Source: Planomonospora sp. ID67723
GTDB taxonomy: Bacteria; Actinomycetota; Actinomycetes; Streptosporangiales; Streptosporangiaceae
NCBI RefSeq assembly: GCF_015711605.1
Contig: NZ_JABTEZ010000003.1
Coordinates: forward strand, 992,001 to 1,056,000
DNA: 64,000 bases
Direction of reading: 5' to 3'
Made by a program: the position numbers and the translations under genes. Positions 1-9,789 of the stretch are shown piece after piece. The notes beneath the pieces are model-generated. The model was not told the DNA's origin, searched no databases, and saw nothing but the letters and a program-made list of their open reading frames with translations. How positions within the stretch are numbered: the stretch's first letter is position 1; each line of letters opens with the position of its first letter.

Positions 1-465
1 GGAGGTGACCAGCCCGGTCGAGATGCCCACCAGCGTCACCGGCACGCTTCCGGCGGTCGCGGTGTTGCTCACCAGCCGGTTGACCAGCTCGCCGGTCGGT
101 GACCGGCGGGTCTCGGCGATGTCGAGCGAGAGCAGGTGGGCGGTCAGCCGCACCCGCACGGACGCCGTGGCGGAGGCGGTGGCGGCGGCTCCGGCCACCA
201 TGCCGGCGATCTCGGCGCATGCCGTGAGGACCAGCACCAGGACCAGTCCCACCGCGGCGCTCCGCGCTCCGCGGCCCGTGAGGGCCTCGTCCACCGCGGA
301 GGCCAGGACGGCGGGCAGGGCCAGCACGGCGCCGGAGGAGGCGATGGTGGCGGCGGCGACCACCGCCAGCGGCGCCCGTGCGCCGCGCGCGAGGGAGGCG
401 AGCAGGCGGTCACCGTGTTTCCGCGTCGCCCGCTCTCGCGGCGGGTCCGGCACGGGATCTGGCAT
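1..465 (-). CDS. ABC exporter, N-terminal transmembrane part (partial, runs off the window)
   Basis: Reading the minus strand from ATG at 465, preceded by a GGGAGACG ribosome site, gives 155 codons with no stop before the window edge. After a basic start (MPDPVPDPP, then RERATRKHGDRLLASL), two hydrophobic stretches lie near residues 33-55 and 75-98. They are followed by a segment with SLDIAETRRSPTGELVNRLVSNT, typical of the first transmembrane helices and the first cytoplasmic loop of type I ABC exporters. The ATPase domain would lie beyond the window. The gene is downstream of, and on the same strand as, the lanthipeptide precursor gene, so export of the modified peptide is the natural role. 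Family assignment is firm; the substrate is inferred. Confidence 0.8.
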   Translation of the reverse strand, partial: MPDPVPDPPRERATRKHGDRLLASLARGARAPLAVVAAATIASSGAVLALPAVLASAVDEALTGRGARSAAVGLVLVLVLTACAEIAGMVAGAAATASATASVRVRLTAHLLSLDIAETRRSPTGELVNRLVSNTATAGSVPVTLVGISTGLVTS

Positions 466-511
466 CGTCTCCCTCTCTGCGTGGCGGATCCGCCGGGACG
501 GCGGGCCCGCG

Positions 512-545
512 CTTCCGGCGGGGCGGGAACCCGCCCCGCCGGAAG
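512..545 (-). terminator. Very strong GC hairpin between precursor and exporter genes
   Basis: An essentially perfect 16-bp inverted repeat (512-527 against 530-545) has only two central bases between the arms. It sits 82 bases past the precursor stop and 46 bases before the exporter start. There is no T-run after it on the minus strand, so it may act as a partial terminator or as a barrier to 3' exonucleases that raises precursor mRNA over exporter mRNA. Confidence 0.65.
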
Positions 546-627
546 GCCTACCGGGGGTCTGGCCCGTCACACCGCGGTGAACACCAGCCGGCGCCCACCT
601 GCGGTCCCTGGGCGAGACCCGGCGGGA

Positions 628-762
628 TCAGTACGTGTACCCGGAGCCGTTGCAGCTGTTGAAGCAGGTACGGATGTTGACCTCGCAGGTGGAGTTGCAG
701 TCGCGGAGCTGGGTCTCCTCGGTCGCGGGGAGCATCTCCAGGGCGTTGATGTCGAGTTCCAT
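628..762 (-). CDS. Lanthipeptide precursor peptide (44 aa)
   Basis: The ATG at 762 is preceded by AAGAAGGAAGGAACC. A longer in-frame reading upstream passes through low-complexity sequence and lacks this site. The 44-residue product has an acidic leader (MELDINALEMLPATEE) and a C-terminal core with Cys at 22, 26, 33 and 37, plus Ser/Thr at 24, 25, 32, 36, 40 and 43. The leader pattern (L..LP.T) resembles class IV lanthipeptide leaders such as venezuelin. The only proline is residue 12. The gene sits directly after the synthetase and peptidase genes and before an ABC exporter. Modification probably gives thioether rings; topology cannot be read from sequence. Cys22 has only Thr14 and Thr17 upstream. 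Confidence 0.85.
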   Translation of the reverse strand: MELDINALEMLPATEETQLRDCNSTCEVNIRTCFNSCNGSGYTY

Positions 763-819
763 CGCGGTTCCTTCCTTCTTGCCGGTTTCTTCCGGGGCTG
801 TCGCCCCGCTCGGGGTACC

Positions 820-849
820 GCCGGCACGTCCGGGCGGGGACGTGCCGGC
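820..849 (-). other. Perfect 12-bp hairpin between peptidase and precursor genes
   Basis: The arms 820-831 and 838-849 are exact reverse complements around a 6-base loop, in the 132-base gap between the peptidase stop (895) and the precursor start (762). A smaller 6-bp stem lies at 793-808. With no T-run, it could be an attenuator or an RNA-processing site that uncouples precursor expression from the enzyme genes. Confidence 0.6.
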
Positions 850-894
850 CACCGGCGGGGTCCGGGCATGTGTCCGCCCGGCCCCGCCGGAGGT

Positions 895-2721
895 CTACGG
901 AGGGTTGCGCCGATCGCACGGCAGCGGGCGGCGGCCCGCGCCCTCGCTGAGGAAGCCGACGACGCGGTCGAGGACGAGGTGCCCGCCGGCCTCGGACAGC
1001 GGATCGTGGCCGGCGCCGGGGACCTCCAGGTAGGTCAGGTCGGCGCCACCGCGGTGCCCGCTTCCGCACAGCCGGTCGCGCAGGCGCCGGGAGTGGGCGA
1101 CCGGGATGACCGGGTCCTGCTCACCGTGGACGATGAGCAGGGGCAGCCGCATCCGGTCGGCCAGCCGCAGCAGGTCGCGGGGGCCGAGGTCGTCGTCGAT
1201 CTCCTCGCGGCCGCCGAGCCGGTCGATCAGGTGGCGCACCTCGGGCGGCCCGTCGGCGTGCAGGTGCCGCCCGGACAGGAACGGGGCGACGACCGCGGCG
1301 CGGGACCACAGGCCGGGCCGGGCGGCGGCGGCCAGCAGCGCCAGGTAGGCGCCGTAGCTGGGGCCGTACAGCATCGGCCGTTCGCGGCCCGGCCCGCGCG
1401 CGGCGGACAGGGCGCGGCCCAGATGCAGGACGTCGTCCAGGTCGGGGCCGCCCCAGGCGCCGCGGACGGCGTCGCGGTGCGCCGCGCCGTATCCGGTGCT
1501 GCCCCGCTGGTTGGGCGCGACCACGGCGATCCCCGCAGCGGCCAGGCGCCGGAACAGCGGGTCGAAACCGAGCTGCCAGGAGGACTCGGGGCCGCCGTGC
1601 AGCGCGAGCACCGCCCGGCGGGCCGCGCCGGGATCGCCGTACACGACGGCCTCGATGTCTCCCGCCGGGCCGTCGTAGCCGCGCACGGAGGGCTGCGCCC
1701 ACCGCGGGCGGGAAAGGCGTCGGACGGCACGTGACCGGGACGGCCGGACCGCGGTGATCAGAACGGGCGGGTGGTCGGGCGTGCTGTGGACCAGGTGCAG
1801 CCCGGTGTCACCCCAGTGGGCCCTCCGGTACAGGACGCCTGCCGGGAGGTCGACCTCCCGGCAGGCGTCCTCCACCAGGTCGTGCAGGAGCAGATGGGAG
1901 CGGACGCCGCGGGTGACCGCCAGCGCCAGGTGCCGTCCGGCGGGGTCCAGGGCCAGCGGTGTCACACCGCCCTCGATCGCGTTCAGCCGGTCGGGGAAGG
2001 CGGTGGGCCCCTCGTGGCCGTGGCGCCGGACACCCAGCCGGTAGGCGCCGTCGCGGCGCGCGGCGGTGAGCAGTACCCCGGTGCGGGGGGCTGCCAGCAG
2101 CAGGTGCTCGTCACCGGCCAGGCCGCCCAGGGGGGCCAGGACGCCGCGTGAGAGGTCCAGCACCACGGTGCCCCCCGCCCCGGCCCGGCCGGAGGCCAGG
2201 GCGAGGCGGTCGCCGGTCCCGTCGAGCCAGACTCCCCCGTTGACCAGGACCGGGAGTTCGGCGATCGGCTCGGGTGGTTCGTCCCGGCCGGACAGGCGCC
2301 AGACCGTGGTCCTCCGGTTCGTGTCGGCCTCGAAGGCCAGGGCGGCGGTTCCGGGGACCGGGCCGGCGAGGAGCCTGAGGGCGGGACCGCCGACGGTGGC
2401 CAGCCGGCGTTCCTCGGCCGGGGCGTCGCCGTCCCGGGAGGGGACGGCCAGCAGGAGGCGGTGTACGCCGCCGTCCGGGCGGCACAGCAGCACGCGGCCG
2501 TCGTCGGTGGCGACCGGTGTGGTCTGCGGGCTTTCTCCGCCGGGGCCGTGCAGGATCCGGGCCCGCGGGGCGCTCCCCGTGAGGTCCCACAGCTCCGGGG
2601 CCAGGCGGTGGCCGCGGCGCACCAGGCAGGCGGCGTACCGCCCGCCCCCGGAGAAGCAGAAGTTGATCCGCCGGACATCCGGGAGGACCCCTCGCCCGGT
2701 CGCGGAGACGATCCTGCTCAT
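895..2721 (-). CDS. Prolyl-oligopeptidase family (S9) serine peptidase, probable leader peptidase
   Basis: This 608-residue protein has an N-terminal beta-propeller-like half (about residues 15-340) and a C-terminal alpha/beta hydrolase. The catalytic triad is visible as Ser455 in GPSYGAY, Asp536 in HGEQDPVIP and His572 in GAGHDP; HGGPESSW near 375-382 supplies the oxyanion region. There is no signal peptide, so it should act in the cytoplasm. The ATG at 2721 shares its A with the synthetase stop codon (TGATG), so the two are translationally coupled; the reading frame is open further upstream but only inside the synthetase gene. A prolyl oligopeptidase, FlaP, matures the class III lanthipeptide flavipeptin. 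By analogy this enzyme should cut after Pro12, the only proline in the precursor. The peptidase family is clear; the substrate is inferred. Confidence 0.88.
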   Translation of the reverse strand: MSRIVSATGRGVLPDVRRINFCFSGGGRYAACLVRRGHRLAPELWDLTGSAPRARILHGPGGESPQTTPVATDDGRVLLCRPDGGVHRLLLAVPSRDGDAPAEERRLATVGGPALRLLAGPVPGTAALAFEADTNRRTTVWRLSGRDEPPEPIAELPVLVNGGVWLDGTGDRLALASGRAGAGGTVVLDLSRGVLAPLGGLAGDEHLLLAAPRTGVLLTAARRDGAYRLGVRRHGHEGPTAFPDRLNAIEGGVTPLALDPAGRHLALAVTRGVRSHLLLHDLVEDACREVDLPAGVLYRRAHWGDTGLHLVHSTPDHPPVLITAVRPSRSRAVRRLSRPRWAQPSVRGYDGPAGDIEAVVYGDPGAARRAVLALHGGPESSWQLGFDPLFRRLAAAGIAVVAPNQRGSTGYGAAHRDAVRGAWGGPDLDDVLHLGRALSAARGPGRERPMLYGPSYGAYLALLAAAARPGLWSRAAVVAPFLSGRHLHADGPPEVRHLIDRLGGREEIDDDLGPRDLLRLADRMRLPLLIVHGEQDPVIPVAHSRRLRDRLCGSGHRGGADLTYLEVPGAGHDPLSEAGGHLVLDRVVGFLSEGAGRRPLPCDRRNPP

Positions 2722-5600
2722 CACGGCCGCGCCCACCGCGCCGGGCCGGTGGCCGCCGGGTCCGTCGGGCCGTCGCCGGGCGGGTCGGCCATCCAGGGGC
2801 GCGGCCCGCCGCGGCGCAGCCGGTGCAGGAAGTCCAGCACCCCGGCCAGGCCGGTGTTCCAGCCGACGGTCACCTCGGTCGTGCTCTCGTCCGGAACCAC
2901 CAGCAACCCGTCGCGGACGACGGCACGCGCCCACAGGCACCCGGCCAGTTCCTCGGCCAGCTCGTGGTAGACCGGCTCGCCCAGGACGTCGGCCATGTCG
3001 AGGAGGAACTGCCCGTCGCCGGCGAGTCCGTGGCAGGCCGCCGTTCCCGAGCTCAGGCGGTGCGCGTGCACGGCGACCGCGGCGCCTCTGGCGGCGTCCA
3101 GGAAACGCCGGTCACCGGTGGTCGCGTACAGGCGGATGAGGAACGTGCCCACGCCAGAGGAACCGCTGCACCAGTGCGGAAGCCTGTCCTCCCCGCCGGG
3201 GGCGCCCGCCCACCAGACGGCGTCGCCGTGGCGGTCGGCCGCGGCCAGCAGGGTCTCTCCGGCCGCCACGGCCGTCTCCAGGCAGTCCCCACGCCCCAGA
3301 GCGGCGCCCGCGGCCAGCAGGCAGGCGCCGACGCCGGCGACGCCGTGGGCGAAGCCGTAGTGCACCACGCCCGCCAGCCCGGAGTCGAAGTCCTCGGGAA
3401 TCGGCCACATCACCGTCCCGGGGGTCCGCCGGGCGGCCTTCAGCAGCGCGTCGGCGCACTCTCCGGCCCGCTCGCGGAAGCGGGTGTCGCCGGTTGCGTG
3501 CCAGAAGTGCAACAGGGCCAGCCCCGTTCCGGCCAGACCGTGGCACACGTCCGGGTTCGGCCAGCTCGTCGGCAGGCCCAGTGCGAGGTCGGCGCCGGCC
3601 GCGCGCAGACCGTCGTCGCCGAGCGCGCGGCCGGCCTCGTACAGACCCCAGGCGATCCCGGCGCGACCGAAGTACAGCCCCGGAGAGGGCCGGTGCTCAC
3701 CGGCGACGCGGCGCGCCGTCCAGCCCGCCGCGTCCCTCAGGCCCACCGGCAGTCCGGCGTGCGGTCCCGGCGGCCCCGCCTGCGCCGATCGGCCGGAGGC
3801 CGCGGCGGGCTCGTGCCCCGCCAGCGAGGCGAGCAGGGTGAGCACTCCGGCCGATCCGTACTGCACGGCGCACGGATCGGTGGTCGCTCCGTATCCGCTC
3901 GCCCCCTTGACGGGCCACAGCGCGCCGCGCGCCGCGGGGTCGGCGACCGCGACCGGGGAGATCGTCCGCAGGATGTGGGCGAGCCCGTCATCGAGCAGGC
4001 GATCCTGCTCGGCCGTGCCCAGCCGGTAGCCGTTCGGAGTCCCGGCACGGGTCGCCGGCGGGACCGGTACGGCGGCCACGCCGTCCAGGAACGCCCGTAC
4101 CCGCTCCAGATCCCAGCGCCGTGCGGGTTCCTGCCTCATCAGACCGAGGAAGAGCGGGACCAGCGCCGTCGCCACCGGATCGCCCGCGGTGGCGACGCTC
4201 ACCAGCGTGTTCAGCCGTGCGTCCCACGACCGCGTCCCGGCGGGCCGGTCCTCCGCCAGCACCGGCTGGCAGTCGGTGGCCATGAAGAACACCGTCGCCC
4301 CGAGTGCGAACAGGTCGGCCTCCGGGCCGGGCGCGGGGCCGTACTCGGCACCCCGGACCTGTTCGGGTGGAGCGTAACCGGGAGTGAACGTCCGCACCAC
4401 CGGCGTGCCGGGCACCGCGGTCGTCTCCAGATCGATCAGCAGGCAGCCGTCGCCGGTGACGACGACGTTGTTCGGCGTCAGGTCCCGCAGCACGTATCCC
4501 CGGCCGTGCACCACGGAGACCAGAGCGGCCAGCCGCCGGGCCAGGCCCACCACCGTGGCGTGGCGGTCCGGATCCGGCGGGGAGAAGCGCCGCTCACCGG
4601 CCCATCCGGTGAGCACGCTCCCGGCGAGGCGCTCCTGCGCGAGGAAGAGGTTGTCGTCCTGCTCGAACAACGCCACTTTGCGTGCCGTGACGCCCAGCGG
4701 GGCGAACAGGTCGAGCATGCGCGCCTCGTGGCGGAGCCGGTCGCGGCCGTCCCGCCCGTGCAGGCCGGCGCCCAGGTGCGGGCGGGCCTGCTTGACCACC
4801 ACCTGGCCGCCGGTCATCCGATCCTCGGCCAGGAAGACCCCTCCCTTGGCGCCGTGCCGGACGGCCTGGCGCACCACGAACCGGTCGGCCAGCAACACCG
4901 CCTCCGGCACGGCGGCCCGAGCCGGCACCCGGCCGGACTCGAACGGGCACCGCGCCCACTCCGGAGGGGAGTACCACGCCCTGCGCTCGTCGGTCACCCT
5001 GGTGCCGTCGGGCGCGGTCAGCCGCGAGGCGTAGGTTCCGTCGTTGTCCAGCTCGTCGGGGGCGGAGAACACCCCGAAGCGGTAGTGCACCAGGCTGCCG
5101 GGGCGGTAGGCACGATCGGACAGGATCGGCGGGCCGGGCAGGCCGAAGGTGGCCCGGTGCAGCTCCTCGGCGGTCGCCACGGCGGTCTCGTCGTCGGGCG
5201 GGTAGACCGTGAGGAACTTGCCGACCGATCCGCGATCCCGCTCACGTGAGAGGAGGGCGCCCGTCTCACCGAGTGTGGCGGCGAACTTGAACGGGCAGCG
5301 ACGGCGGCCCAGTACCTCCGCCACCCTCGCCAGCACCACGGGGGCCGACAACGGCGTCGCCGACACATGGAGCTTCCAGCCCTGGGCGCGCCTCACCGAA
5401 CCCGCCGGAGCCGCATAGGTCCACGGCGTACCGGGGCGGATCTCCCAGCCGGGGGAGACGGGTCTTCCCCGGGCGGGTCCCGCGCCGGCGTTCACCGCGT
5501 CCGCCGCCCGGCCCGCCACCCGGTCCAGGGTCGCCCTGGCGATGTCCTCCAGCAGATGGCGATCTCCGTCCGGACGCTCGCCCTCACCCGTACTCCGCAC
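2721..5600 (-). CDS. Lyase-kinase-cyclase lanthipeptide synthetase, zinc-site complete (class IV-like)
   Basis: About 959 residues in three domains. The N-terminal phosphoSer/Thr lyase-like part (to about 235) carries GWKLHVSA and CPFKFAA. The Ser/Thr kinase (about 240-510) has the VVVKQ lysine near 270, LRDLTPNN near 372-378 and an IDLE metal-binding Asp near 390. The LanC-like cyclase (about 570-930) has GFAHGVAG, HWCSG and CHGLAG; Cys811, Cys856 and His857 keep the 45-residue spacing of the LanC zinc site. Class III enzymes usually lack these ligands, so LanL (class IV) fits better. The GTG at 5600 lies 7 bases after GAGAGG; a GTG at 5606 is the alternative but is too close. Coupled to the peptidase gene downstream. 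It dehydrates and cyclises the 44-aa precursor. Confidence 0.88.
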   Translation of the reverse strand: MRSTGEGERPDGDRHLLEDIARATLDRVAGRAADAVNAGAGPARGRPVSPGWEIRPGTPWTYAAPAGSVRRAQGWKLHVSATPLSAPVVLARVAEVLGRRRCPFKFAATLGETGALLSRERDRGSVGKFLTVYPPDDETAVATAEELHRATFGLPGPPILSDRAYRPGSLVHYRFGVFSAPDELDNDGTYASRLTAPDGTRVTDERRAWYSPPEWARCPFESGRVPARAAVPEAVLLADRFVVRQAVRHGAKGGVFLAEDRMTGGQVVVKQARPHLGAGLHGRDGRDRLRHEARMLDLFAPLGVTARKVALFEQDDNLFLAQERLAGSVLTGWAGERRFSPPDPDRHATVVGLARRLAALVSVVHGRGYVLRDLTPNNVVVTGDGCLLIDLETTAVPGTPVVRTFTPGYAPPEQVRGAEYGPAPGPEADLFALGATVFFMATDCQPVLAEDRPAGTRSWDARLNTLVSVATAGDPVATALVPLFLGLMRQEPARRWDLERVRAFLDGVAAVPVPPATRAGTPNGYRLGTAEQDRLLDDGLAHILRTISPVAVADPAARGALWPVKGASGYGATTDPCAVQYGSAGVLTLLASLAGHEPAAASGRSAQAGPPGPHAGLPVGLRDAAGWTARRVAGEHRPSPGLYFGRAGIAWGLYEAGRALGDDGLRAAGADLALGLPTSWPNPDVCHGLAGTGLALLHFWHATGDTRFRERAGECADALLKAARRTPGTVMWPIPEDFDSGLAGVVHYGFAHGVAGVGACLLAAGAALGRGDCLETAVAAGETLLAAADRHGDAVWWAGAPGGEDRLPHWCSGSSGVGTFLIRLYATTGDRRFLDAARGAAVAVHAHRLSSGTAACHGLAGDGQFLLDMADVLGEPVYHELAEELAGCLWARAVVRDGLLVVPDESTTEVTVGWNTGLAGVLDFLHRLRRGGPRPWMADPPGDGPTDPAATGPARWARP

Positions 5601-5772
5601 AGCCACGCCTCTCGAACCCCCATCACCCTCGCCCGACGATCAGCACGGGTCCGGGCGGGCACGGACCGGCCGGCGCCCCACGGCGGAAAGACCGCCCGTC
5701 CTCGCGCTCCACCGGGAACCCGCCGAACGGATCCACGCTGCGGGAATGCTCTCTGACCGCGTTTGCGGGCGA

Positions 5773-5976: not shown

Positions 5977-6219
5977 CTATTCGTGGTAGAGGTACAGGTC
6001 GAAGAAGGAACCGGCGCGCCTGCACTGGAAGTCCACGGCATTGGTGGTGAAGAGGGCTCTGACGCCGGCGCTGCTGCAGCCACCGCTGGTCGTGTGGTGG
6101 CCTGCGAACCACCAGCCTCCGGCGAACTGCGCGGAAGCGGCCGTCGCGGGAGCGGCCGTGGCTCCAAGGACCAGGCCCCCGGCTATCAGCGCCGCTGCGG
6201 CCAGACGACGAGTTCTCAT
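5977..6219 (-). CDS. Small secreted Cys-containing protein of unknown function (80 aa)
   Basis: The ATG at 6219 follows AGGAAGAGA. Residues 1-28 form a clear Sec signal peptide: basic MRTRR, a hydrophobic Ala/Leu core, and an APATA-A cleavage region. The mature part of about 50 residues is rich in aromatic residues (GGWWFAGHH; SFFDLYLYHE at the end) and has two Cys (48 and 66) that could form a disulfide. I recognise no family. It lies between the lanthipeptide synthetase and the SARP-type activator on the same strand. It has its own terminator, and upstream it has the TCCAAG repeat type found at the synthetase promoter. It may be a co-regulated extracellular factor or peptide; that is inference. 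Confidence 0.7.
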   Translation of the reverse strand: MRTRRLAAAALIAGGLVLGATAAPATAASAQFAGGWWFAGHHTTSGGCSSAGVRALFTTNAVDFQCRRAGSFFDLYLYHE

Positions 6220-6319
6220 TCTCTTCCTGCCCTTCGTCAAGAGGTGCGCCCGTGAACGGCGATTCCGGTGAGAACCGCCCCGGGGCGCGTGATTTCCTGC
6301 CAAAGGGTGCATCGGCATG

Positions 6320-6402: not shown

Positions 6403-9400
6403 TCAGCCCGCACGCCGCGGCGCCGCGCTCCGTCCCTCCGAGGCGATGAGCCCGAGCTCCGCCGCCGCCCGGTCCCGCCATCGCACGAGCCCGTTGCGGC
6501 CCGCCAGCCGCGCCAGCGTCACCAGGTGCCGGACGGCGGTCTCCCGCTCGCCCAGGGCGGAGGCGAGCAGGGCCAGGAACCAGTCCACCGGCCCCGCGAG
6601 CGCGATCGCGGAGCCCGCCGAGATGCCGCCGCTGTGCGGCAGCAGCGCCGAGTAGCTCGCCTGGCAGGCGGAAACGTCGCCGAGGGCCGTCTGCGCCGCC
6701 GCCTGCAGGCAGGTCATGGTCAGCCAGGACCAGTCGCGGGGCGGAGTGCGCCAGCCGTGCTCGACCAGCCCGCGTGCCTGGGCGGTACGGCCCTGCGCGC
6801 ACAGATGCAGGATCCGCGCGTCATTGTCCATGGTGGCGTGAATGCCGGCGATCGAGTCGATCAGCGCTCCGGCGTCGGCCATGGAACCGCGATGGAAGTG
6901 CAGCATGATGCGCCCGGTGTCCACCACCGCGCCCGCGTACCACATGCCGAGCCGCCCGGCCTGCTGCTCGGCCTCGCCGTACAGGACGTCGGCGTCGTCG
7001 AAGCATCCCTCCAGGACCAGCCTGCCGGCGCGCCACATCGTGTGCTGGAAGCGAGGCCAGGGAAGCGGCAGCCGTTCCAGGCTCGCATCGCAGCGGGCGG
7101 CGGCCTCGTCCGCGCCGGCCAGGTCGAACAACTGCAACCGGTGGTGGGTGAACAGCATCTGCGCGAGCAGCTCGACCTCGGGCGTGCGGGTACGCGCGGC
7201 CAGGCCGAGCAGTTCGGTGGCGATCTCCAGCAGCTCGCGGGAACGGACCGACTGGGGCAGCGAGAGCTGCCGCGCGTTGAGAGTCTGCATCAGCAGGTGC
7301 GGATCACCGAGCCGGCGGGCCGTCTCGACGGCCTCGGCCGACAGGAGGTCGCAGCGCGGGTCGTCACTGCCGTCGTAGAGCTCCTGCGCCAGCCCGCCCA
7401 GCAGCCGCACGCGATCGGCTCCGTCGCCCGGGGGCAGGTGGCTCAGCGCCGTCTCGAACCGGCGCACCAGATGCAGTTCCACCTCTTCGTAGGGGTTGCG
7501 CAGGGTCCACACCGAAGGGGCGTCCAGCGCGGTCAACGCGCGGATCGTCAGCATGGGGTCGTTCCGCCCGGAGGCGCGGTCGCTGCGGTCGGCGACGCGG
7601 ATGGCCTGCGCCCGCGCTCTGCGGGCGCCGAGGGCGTCCCCGGCCGCCAGCAGCGCGCGAACCTGGTGAAGCAGGAGGTCGACGTGGTCGAGGGGGTCGC
7701 CCGCGGAGGCGCCGTGGGCCTCGACCGCCCGGCCCCACCACAGGGCCGCCTCCTCGTAGGCCAGCCGCAGAGATGCCTGCCGGGCGGCGGCACGGGCCCA
7801 GCGCGCCGCCTCGCCGTAGGCCGCCGGGCCGGCCTCGACGGCGTGGTGGGCGATGACGGCCACGTCCACGCCGGGACGGGCGGCCAGGGCGGCCATCACC
7901 TCCCGGTGCACCGCCGCCCTGCGCAGCGCGGGAAGGTCGCGCAGGAGGGCCTCGCGGACCAGGTCGTGGGCGAAGGCCATGTGCGGAGGGCAGGAGACGA
8001 GCAGCCCGGCCTGGGCGGCCTGGTCCAGCACGCCGTACACCTCTGCCGGCGCCGCCCGGCAGGCCTGGGCGACGACACCGGGATCGAACTGCCTGCCGAT
8101 GACCGCGGAGGCGTTGAGGGCCTCGACGGCCTGCGGACCCAGCGCGGCCACCCGCCGCCGGATGAGGTCGGCGACCGCGACCGGTACGGCGCCCAGCGTG
8201 CCGCCCTGGGCGAGCATGCGGGTCGTCTCCCTGGCGAACAGGGGGTTCCCGCCGGTGCGTTCGGTCAGCCGCCGGGCGGTCGGCCCGTCCAGTTCGACGC
8301 CCATGCCGTGGGCGATGGTCTTTATGGTCTCGGGGCCGAGGCCGGTGAGGCGGATGTGGAGCAGGTCGTGGCGGGCCAGCCGGCCGAGCACGTCGTCCAG
8401 GTGCAGGCGGTCCGGCCCGTCGCGGAAGGCGGTGACCAGCGTGACGGGGACGGGCTCGGCGGAATCGGCCAGCAGTGTGACCAGGTCGCTGAGCAGCCGG
8501 AGCGAAGCGGGATCGGCCCAGTGCAGGTCGTCCAGGATGACGACCAGGGGCCGGGAGCGCGCGGCGGCCCTCAGCCAGTCCGCGATGGCCTGGTGGCGGC
8601 GCAGCAGCGCGGCCTCGGTGGATCCCGCGGGGGTCTCGTCGTCCAGGAGGCCGGCCAGAGCCCGGCGGTCGGGCGGGGGACAGACCTGGGTGAGCGCGCG
8701 CAGGAGCTGCAGCCACGGCCACAGGGGCGGGGAGCCCTCGGTCTCGGGGCAGCGGCCCCAGAGCACCGGGCGGCCGGCGGTGGCGCAGCGGTCGCGGAAC
8801 GCTCCGAGCAGCCACGTCTTGCCGATGCCCGGCTCGCCGCTCACCGCCGCGGTCGCCACCTCCCCCCGTTCCGGCAGGGTTTCCAACTCGGCCAGCTGCC
8901 GCTCCCTGCCGTGCGGGGCACGCGGTCTCGCGGGGGACGCGGGGACGGCCTCCGCGGGGGCGGAGGGGAGCATGAGTGAGTCGGCCTGCCGGAGAATGGC
9001 CTCCTCCAGGGTCCGCAGCCCGGGACCGGGGTCCAGGCCCAACTGGTCGGCGAGCAGCCTTCCGGCGCGGCGCAGTACGGCCAGCGCGTCGGCCTGCCGC
9101 CCGGTGCGGTAGAGGGCCAGTGCCAGCAGGTGCCACAGCCGCTCACGCAGCGGGTGCGCGGCCGACTCGGCCTCCAGGCTGGTGACGACGGCCTGAGGGC
9201 GGCCGAGATCCAGTTGCGCCCGGGCACGCCGCTCGACCGCGACAAGACGCAGCTCGGACAGGCGGGCGACCTCAGAGGAGGCCCACAGCTCGCCGGTGAA
9301 CTCACCGTAGGGCGGCCCGTTCCAGAGCCGCAGCGCCGCCTCCGAACAGGCGAGCGCCTCCTCGGGCGGCAGCGACTCCGACCGGGTGACGAGTTCGGTG

Positions 9401-9714
9401 AACCGGCGCGCGTCGAGGTCGGTCGCGACGAGCAGGTATCCGGGGGGCCGCCCGACGAGCAGCCGGGGGAGGGCGCGTGGCGGACGTCCCGGTTCGATGG
9501 CCCGGCGCAGGTTGGACACGTACGCCTGAATCGTGGCCACCGCGCTCGGCGGAGACGCGTCGCCGTACAGATCCTCGATCAGGGTGCCGGTGGAGACGAC
9601 CGCTCCGCCCGCGACCAGCAGCCGGGCGAGCACCGCGCGCTGGCGCGGACCGCCGAGCCTGACGGGAACCCCGTCGCCGTAGACCTCGATCGGGCCGAGA
9701 ACCCGGAACTTCAT
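6403..9714 (-). CDS. Large SARP-type transcriptional activator with AAA/NB ATPase and helical C-terminus
   Basis: About 1103 residues. Residues 1-97 form an OmpR-like winged helix (starts MKFRVLGPIEV, with RAVLARLLV and a SNLRRAI recognition region). Residues 98-245 form a bacterial transcriptional activation (BTAD) domain. A nucleotide-binding module follows, with Walker A GEPGIGKTW near 293-301 and Walker B VVILDDLHWAD near 400. The last 500 residues look like helical TPR-type repeats. This is the layout of AfsR/large SARP regulators, which switch on specialised-metabolite clusters. ATG 9714 gives the family's usual start; GTG at 9723 is the alternative. It is the obvious candidate regulator of the lanthipeptide and small secreted protein genes downstream. 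Confidence 0.85.
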   Translation of the reverse strand: MKFRVLGPIEVYGDGVPVRLGGPRQRAVLARLLVAGGAVVSTGTLIEDLYGDASPPSAVATIQAYVSNLRRAIEPGRPPRALPRLLVGRPPGYLLVATDLDARRFTELVTRSESLPPEEALACSEAALRLWNGPPYGEFTGELWASSEVARLSELRLVAVERRARAQLDLGRPQAVVTSLEAESAAHPLRERLWHLLALALYRTGRQADALAVLRRAGRLLADQLGLDPGPGLRTLEEAILRQADSLMLPSAPAEAVPASPARPRAPHGRERQLAELETLPERGEVATAAVSGEPGIGKTWLLGAFRDRCATAGRPVLWGRCPETEGSPPLWPWLQLLRALTQVCPPPDRRALAGLLDDETPAGSTEAALLRRHQAIADWLRAAARSRPLVVILDDLHWADPASLRLLSDLVTLLADSAEPVPVTLVTAFRDGPDRLHLDDVLGRLARHDLLHIRLTGLGPETIKTIAHGMGVELDGPTARRLTERTGGNPLFARETTRMLAQGGTLGAVPVAVADLIRRRVAALGPQAVEALNASAVIGRQFDPGVVAQACRAAPAEVYGVLDQAAQAGLLVSCPPHMAFAHDLVREALLRDLPALRRAAVHREVMAALAARPGVDVAVIAHHAVEAGPAAYGEAARWARAAARQASLRLAYEEAALWWGRAVEAHGASAGDPLDHVDLLLHQVRALLAAGDALGARRARAQAIRVADRSDRASGRNDPMLTIRALTALDAPSVWTLRNPYEEVELHLVRRFETALSHLPPGDGADRVRLLGGLAQELYDGSDDPRCDLLSAEAVETARRLGDPHLLMQTLNARQLSLPQSVRSRELLEIATELLGLAARTRTPEVELLAQMLFTHHRLQLFDLAGADEAAARCDASLERLPLPWPRFQHTMWRAGRLVLEGCFDDADVLYGEAEQQAGRLGMWYAGAVVDTGRIMLHFHRGSMADAGALIDSIAGIHATMDNDARILHLCAQGRTAQARGLVEHGWRTPPRDWSWLTMTCLQAAAQTALGDVSACQASYSALLPHSGGISAGSAIALAGPVDWFLALLASALGERETAVRHLVTLARLAGRNGLVRWRDRAAAELGLIASEGRSAAPRRAG

Positions 9715-9789
9715 CCCTACCACCCATGGTCGGCACAGTAGGTGCGGCCACTGCGACAGGAACGAACTTCACGTATCAAACATCGCTTC

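Follow-up and report, generated by a model that had tools for sequence, protein, structure and literature searches.

The window analyzed here is a stretch of 64,000 nucleotides from the 8.3 Mb genome of Planomonospora sp. ID67723 (G000:C3:992001-1056000), and its left end holds a lanthipeptide gene cluster: genes for a class IV lanthionine synthetase (lanL), a serine peptidase of family S9, a 44-amino acid (aa) precursor (lanA), and the first half of an ATP-binding cassette (ABC) exporter, whose second half lies beyond the window (Table 1). An earlier note on this DNA had described synthetase, peptidase, precursor, and exporter as co-directional and the first two genes as coupled by TGATG; all four lie on the minus strand, and the overlap is read at 2723-2719.

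Table 1. Features of the gene cluster, in window positions except where locus L005 is named
Feature	Position	Strand	Basis
lanL, class IV lanthionine synthetase, up to 961 aa (RamC_N lyase region, Ser/Thr kinase, LanC-like cyclase)	2721..5606	-	GTG start inferred; NCBIfam NF038150 and Pfam
Zinc-ligand codons of lanL	C858 and H859, 3030..3035; C813, 3168-3170	-
TGATG, lanL stop overlapping S9 start	2719..2723	-	Read directly in the sequence
lanP-like S9 serine peptidase (strand-rich N-terminal domain and alpha/beta hydrolase; S455/D536/H572)	895..2721	-	Pfam Peptidase_S9
lanA precursor, 44 aa	628..762	-	NCBIfam NF038157
Predicted core from Cys22 (CNST, CEVNIRT, CFNS, CNGS, tail GYTY)	628..699, stop included	-	Leader/core border inferred; unit reading and statistics
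First ABC exporter half (ABC_membrane and ABC_tran), 589 aa with inferred start	1..~465, crossing the left window edge; L005 8696-10465	-	Pfam
Second ABC half, beyond the window, overlapping the first half	L005 ~8726-6801		Inferred start; Pfam, only ATPase-type domains

The synthetase (P0001) combines the Pfam domains RamC_N, Pkinase, and LANC_like in one chain and scores 1054.1 bits against NCBIfam NF038150, the class IV LanL model (cut-off, 650). Against the class III LanKC model it reaches 414.8 bits, below the cut-off of 575, and its zinc ligands are present, the cyclase retaining an intact Cys-Cys-His (CCH) site (C813, C858, and H859). A class III or hybrid class III/IV assignment was rejected on the LanKC score, and by its model scores the enzyme is a class IV LanL outright, for which dehydration and cyclization are predicted because it belongs to that class. 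Of the earlier wording, "zinc-complete LanL-like," the zinc site stands and the suffix can be dropped. An alignment of 81 LanL rows (L062, L079, and L084 being fragmentary) shows CCH ligands in 62 of the 78 readable rows, including all 39 readable rows from S9-bearing loci; the other 16, from distant loci without S9, have DFH, DFR, DAH, or CCC at these positions. K272, D375, and N380 are kept in 62/62 CCH rows and D392 in at least 97%.

The succession of LanL and S9 is not peculiar to this genome. A scan of named genomes yielded 80 loci, 39 of which have an S9 gene downstream of LanL that starts within ~300 bases (the exception on distance is L032, where the best S9 segment starts inside the protein). 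S9 is present in all 17 loci with a LanL identity of ~65% or more (Planobispora, Planomonospora, Microbispora, Nonomuraea, and others), and the other 22 S9-bearing loci come from Actinomadura, Kitasatospora, Kribbella, and one unplaced Streptosporangiales genome; in all, the order recurs across 39 to 91% LanL identity. LanL was found in 92 of the 295 genomes of the window's GTDB family. From a second sample, which overlaps the named-genome scan such that the two censuses are not independent, 30 LanL loci of the family have an S9 match in the flank in 27 cases (including one weak match of 48 bits), and 60 further LanL loci, hand-picked down the match list from matches that had no locus yet, have a same-strand downstream S9 in another 27, giving 53-54 of 90 when pooled. 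By contrast, none of 30 class III LanKC loci, drawn from the higher-scoring LanKC matches, has an S9 within ~1.5 kb of flank, a sample that leaves room for the FlaP-type clusters that papers report elsewhere.

The two proteins also diverge together: across 38 loci, pairwise identities of LanL and S9 show a correlation of r=0.985, a value reached by 0 of 2000 permutations, and the presence of S9 changes four times on the LanL tree (77 rows), three of these changes being forced by well-supported branches, versus 26.0 changes with shuffled labels (this is a quick tree with long branches, and its change counts are unsure). Among the 60 further loci, an ABC pair (at least 300 bits) accompanies 19 of the 27 with S9 and none of the 33 without. 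A chance neighborhood was rejected on this recurrence and co-divergence, as was S9 as a trait borrowed from class III, on its absence from the ~1.5-kb flanks of the 30 LanKC loci. Possession of LanL plus S9 is, then, a lineage trait of class IV, neither an exception nor general. The earlier note had taken the combination of a class IV zinc site with a peptidase type known from class III as a sign of an undescribed maturation route; by these frequencies, LanL with S9 is the usual state in this lineage and no cross of the two classes, and S9 peptidases were already named for classes III and IV in a 2023 review (PMC10885120, in part). Separately, S9-like matches in six genomes of one genus of the class lie in stretches that, as far as examined, hold no LanL save a 27-bit partial match (L157).

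The precursor matches NF038157, the ALQxL family of class IV lanthipeptides (30.4 bits; cut-off, 19), at all 17 model positions; these cover the leader only, and the model is silent on core and peptidase. Among 297 genomes, 22 have ALQxL leaders, with 30 matches in total, and the precursor is 93 to 98% identical in L006-L008. Leaders are near-constant (~MELDINALDMLPAxEESxL), cores are variable, and a single locus holds at most four precursors. The core at our locus, CNSTCEVNIRTCFNSCNGSGYTY, reads as CNST|CEVNIRT|CFNS|CNGS, and we read the pattern of these cores as a repeated unit (C-x2-6-[S/T] in most cases) whose Cys would close on its final Ser/Thr. In 47 precursors, 108 of 129 positions immediately ahead of a next Cys are Ser/Thr (10,000 shuffles: mean, 46.0; maximum, 65), 33 of 45 have Ser/Thr three residues past the last Cys (+3; shuffle mean, 15.7), and just 2 of the 47 have Ser/Thr preceding the first Cys; some cores are perfect arrays of units, such as CIAT-CTVT-CQTT-CTIT (L251). 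A first set contributed 28 precursors, collapsed to 25 at 70% core identity and mostly, not all, from loci with a LanL identity of at least 65%; two of the other 22 precursors (L229 and L253) come from such loci as well. Within the 3-kb stretches examined, no LanL or S9 accompanies the first-set precursors of L111 and L121, and that of L123 lies beside a LanL whose S9 is visible in L250. First-set members are excluded from the set of 22, as are an L254 near-copy and a version of one L240 precursor with a longer start. A control of 17 S9-less precursors, roughly one per visible type, shows no enrichment (Ser/Thr before Cys at 5 of 25 positions versus 6.6 expected), the S9-less precursor of L083 nonetheless having two C...[S/T] units. 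A further S9-less class IV family with a strongly conserved precursor of 36 to 41 aa, mostly MSFDV...LTNC...CTDN, occurs in many genomes of the family (L255-L259, L261, L263-L267, L269, and L271-L276).

That the cluster has an S9-family peptidase of its own, as the earlier note held, is borne out by a Peptidase_S9 domain (76 bits; cut-off, 22.6) with an intact triad, encoded by a gene joined to lanL through TGATG; S455, D536, and H572 are kept in all 40 S9 rows of the alignment. The strand-rich N-terminal domain is presumably the beta-propeller of the S9 fold, and the predicted structure has a mean predicted local distance difference test score (pLDDT) of 82.3 (the structure alignment drew on 19 of the 40 rows). 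Both by sequence (phmmer) and by predicted fold (Foldseek), the nearest solved proteins are acylaminoacyl peptidases, at ~20 to 22% identity, and the 50 Foldseek matches listed comprise acylaminoacyl peptidases, puromycin hydrolases, an S9 carboxypeptidase, and further members of family S9. One phmmer match, 7c72, is named prolyl oligopeptidase (rank 13 of 21), its Foldseek title being puromycin-hydrolyzing peptidase, and "prolyl oligopeptidase" is Pfam's label for the whole family. As a label for this enzyme it appears doubtful, and the earlier comparison with FlaP, a prolyl oligopeptidase, loses ground both to these structures and to the three S9-bearing loci that have proline-free precursors.

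Leader removal admits alternatives; these, like the one on ring direction below, address single steps, such that their probabilities and that of our overall reading do not sum to one. Under a FlaP-like route, S9 would cut after Pro12 once the rings have formed, and a zinc aminopeptidase would trim the remaining leader. Pro12 is indeed the only proline of the precursor (P0003), LP occurs in 25 of the 25 first-set leaders, the genome has three matches to M1 peptidases, which might act as leader trimmers, and a post-proline cut with later trimming is described for FlaP (PMC10885120, in part). Against this, 7 of the 22 further precursors, all from S9-bearing loci (L227, L246, and L251), have no proline ahead of the first Cys; L227 and L246 each also have a proline-bearing precursor, and all three of those in L251 are proline-free in this region. 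Because of such precursors, strict post-proline cutting is unlikely as a general rule; at our own locus, it is possible. Leader proline was moreover rejected as a marker of S9, being present in 17 of the 17 S9-less class IV leaders examined and hence not tracking the enzyme, and the closest structures are acylaminoacyl peptidases. We regard the FlaP-like route as a tentative possibility, one that we would not expect to hold. It is quite improbable, in our estimate, that S9 is an accessory hydrolase and that an unclustered AplP-like M1 enzyme removes leaders, as for SflA: 33 of the 60 further LanL loci have no adjacent S9, and SflA is matured by an enzyme from outside its cluster (PMC10885120, in part), but the TGATG overlap and the co-divergence of LanL with S9 speak against this alternative.

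Taken as a whole, the locus is probably a class IV lanthipeptide operon with recognition of a conserved leader, four consecutive Cys-N-terminal rings, leader removal by S9, and export by a heterodimeric ABC transporter. Phosphorylation, elimination, and addition by a zinc cyclase are established for LanL enzymes; here, going by class membership, LanL would bind the conserved leader of the 44-aa precursor, phosphorylate Ser/Thr, and eliminate the phosphate, and its zinc cyclase would add Cys thiols to the dehydro residues. Each Cys would close on the final Ser/Thr of its own unit (Cys22-Thr25, Cys26-Thr32, Cys33-Ser36, and Cys37-Ser40), and the four rings predicted from core statistics and the venezuelin precedent would be consecutive and non-overlapping, with Cys N-terminal. 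S9 would then cleave away the bulk of the leader, if not all of it, without needing proline before the cut, an aminopeptidase might trim later, and the two ABC halves would form a heterodimeric exporter. In venezuelin, whose topology was derived from mass spectrometry, the rings Cys34-Dhb39, Cys45-Dha49 (directly followed by Cys50), and Cys32-Dhb43 (Dha, dehydroalanine; Dhb, dehydrobutyrine) have Cys N-terminal (PMC2843593, in part), and a LanL enzyme is thus capable of this ring direction.

Several observations weigh against this reading. Fifteen S9-bearing precursors of L031-L078 (near-copies merged), counted apart from the 47, are partly contrary to the unit rule: eight of the venezuelin type follow it at 9 of 24 positions and all carry Thr ahead of their first Cys (8 of 8), and seven others (Kribbella, Kitasatospora, and others) follow it at 11 of 13, but only 1 of these 7 has Ser/Thr at +3 from its last Cys. 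Since venezuelin-type precursors break the rule despite S9, the rule is a property of lineages and not of S9 itself. In addition, CEVNIRT is longer than most units, the shuffles take no account of kinship among the cores (near-copies were merged at 70% identity for 25 of them and by eye alone for the other 22), 8 of the 27 S9-bearing loci lack a homologous ABC pair, and the 33 loci without S9 count here as well. Finally, 20 of 25 precursors have Ser/Thr at -5 of the first Cys, where it could serve rings formed in the forward direction, with the dehydro residue N-terminal and Cys C-terminal (for example, Thr17-Cys22, Thr25-Cys33, and Thr32-Cys37), overlapping and with one Cys free or disulfide bound. 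Venezuelin has one such ring, Cys50-Dhb31 (PMC2843593, in part). Forward rings would, however, leave one Cys unpaired and would not account for the Ser/Thr three residues past the last Cys (33 of 45); arrays start with Cys and finish with Ser/Thr, and the -5 residue is missing in 5 of the 25, so that we consider this direction unlikely.

Beyond the single locus, Cys-first rings may characterize a large class IV family, a generalization of which we are less confident and that falls a little short of an even bet: one LanL type, mostly coupled to an S9 that is not obliged to cut after proline, would convert highly variable cores into two to five consecutive C-to-[S/T] rings, each with its Cys N-terminal. 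With its near-constant leader, its exchangeable units, and as many as four precursors in a locus, such a family would amount to a natural modular library with a ring code readable from sequence. If the unit rule is right, the gene sequence would suffice to predict ring partners and topology, and the S9 enzyme could be used to release class IV peptides.

Comparison with known systems places the locus near several of them. The venezuelin cluster (venL-venA-venT-venH) shares LanL chemistry, the zinc cyclase, a Cys N-terminal in three of four rings, and one ring that is a CxxxS unit with Cys directly after it; it differs, in the account given in part of PMC2843593, in having no protease gene, a separate ATPase and permease, and overlapping rings. 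Venezuelin itself was compared by description; LanL proteins from Streptomyces loci with venezuelin-type precursors are 40 to 42% identical to ours, and our core does not show the venezuelin-type pattern TCxCVGLLTLLNTVCxGISCA. Venezuelin-type precursors of Actinomadura (L033, L036, L037, L040-L044, L048-L051, L054, L062, and L078) occur with S9 and mostly with the ABC pair, and those of Streptomyces (L045-L047, L052, L053, L055, and L070) occur with a different ABC match and no S9, apparently one peptide type with two maturation modules. SflA of Streptomyces sp. NRRL S-1022, also compared by description, shares class IV membership and non-interlaced rings (PMC8358304, in part) but has two rings, no protease in its cluster, and an unclustered AplP-like enzyme (PMC10885120, in part). 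The LanIV product of Streptomyces sp. DvalAA-43 has three dehydrations and two rings (PMC9576775, in part); L028, which carries this strain name, has a LanL 46 to 47% identical to ours but no S9 found, and its core is of another type, ending CRWHTSGC. Among class III systems, flavipeptin/FlaP and noursin/NorP share a cluster-encoded S9 peptidase (PMC10885120 and PMC10206099, each in part) and differ in their LanKC synthetase, from a class without zinc ligands, a likeness drawn by description and not by sequence. In one class III family, the prolyl oligopeptidase goes by the name LanPB (PMC7268733, in part).

Characterized class IV lanthipeptides are few (four as of 2022; PMC9576775, in part), and little is understood of how their leaders are removed; the present locus brings synthetase, peptidase, and exporter together. 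Our literature search, which had two central class IV papers outside its reach, met no description of the locus, its product, or the unit rule, and 0 papers combined CxxT with lanthipeptide. Where the earlier note proposed an undescribed product and maturation route, the product was accordingly met in no paper within that coverage, whereas the gene combination is common. The cluster is ordinary by gene content, its predicted product would be a new member of this kind, and the regularity of the core makes ring topology testable.

Upstream of lanL, a SARP-type regulator (BTAD and AAA_16; 6403-9723, minus strand) is a candidate cluster regulator; its counterparts in L006-L008 are 91 to 92% identical, and L013, L015, and L020 have SARP matches that are weaker or partial. 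Between the two, a small protein (5977-6318, minus strand) has a signal-like stretch (judged by eye), two Cys, and no Pfam match, and relatives at 31 to 51% identity also precede lanL in L012, L016, and L020. Elsewhere, the genome encodes a second LanL, one LanM, and one class III LanKC (in L164; G000:C3:756000-767000) adjoining a homologous ABC pair that is 44 to 46% identical to that of the class IV cluster, which hints at an exchange of exporters between lanthipeptide classes.

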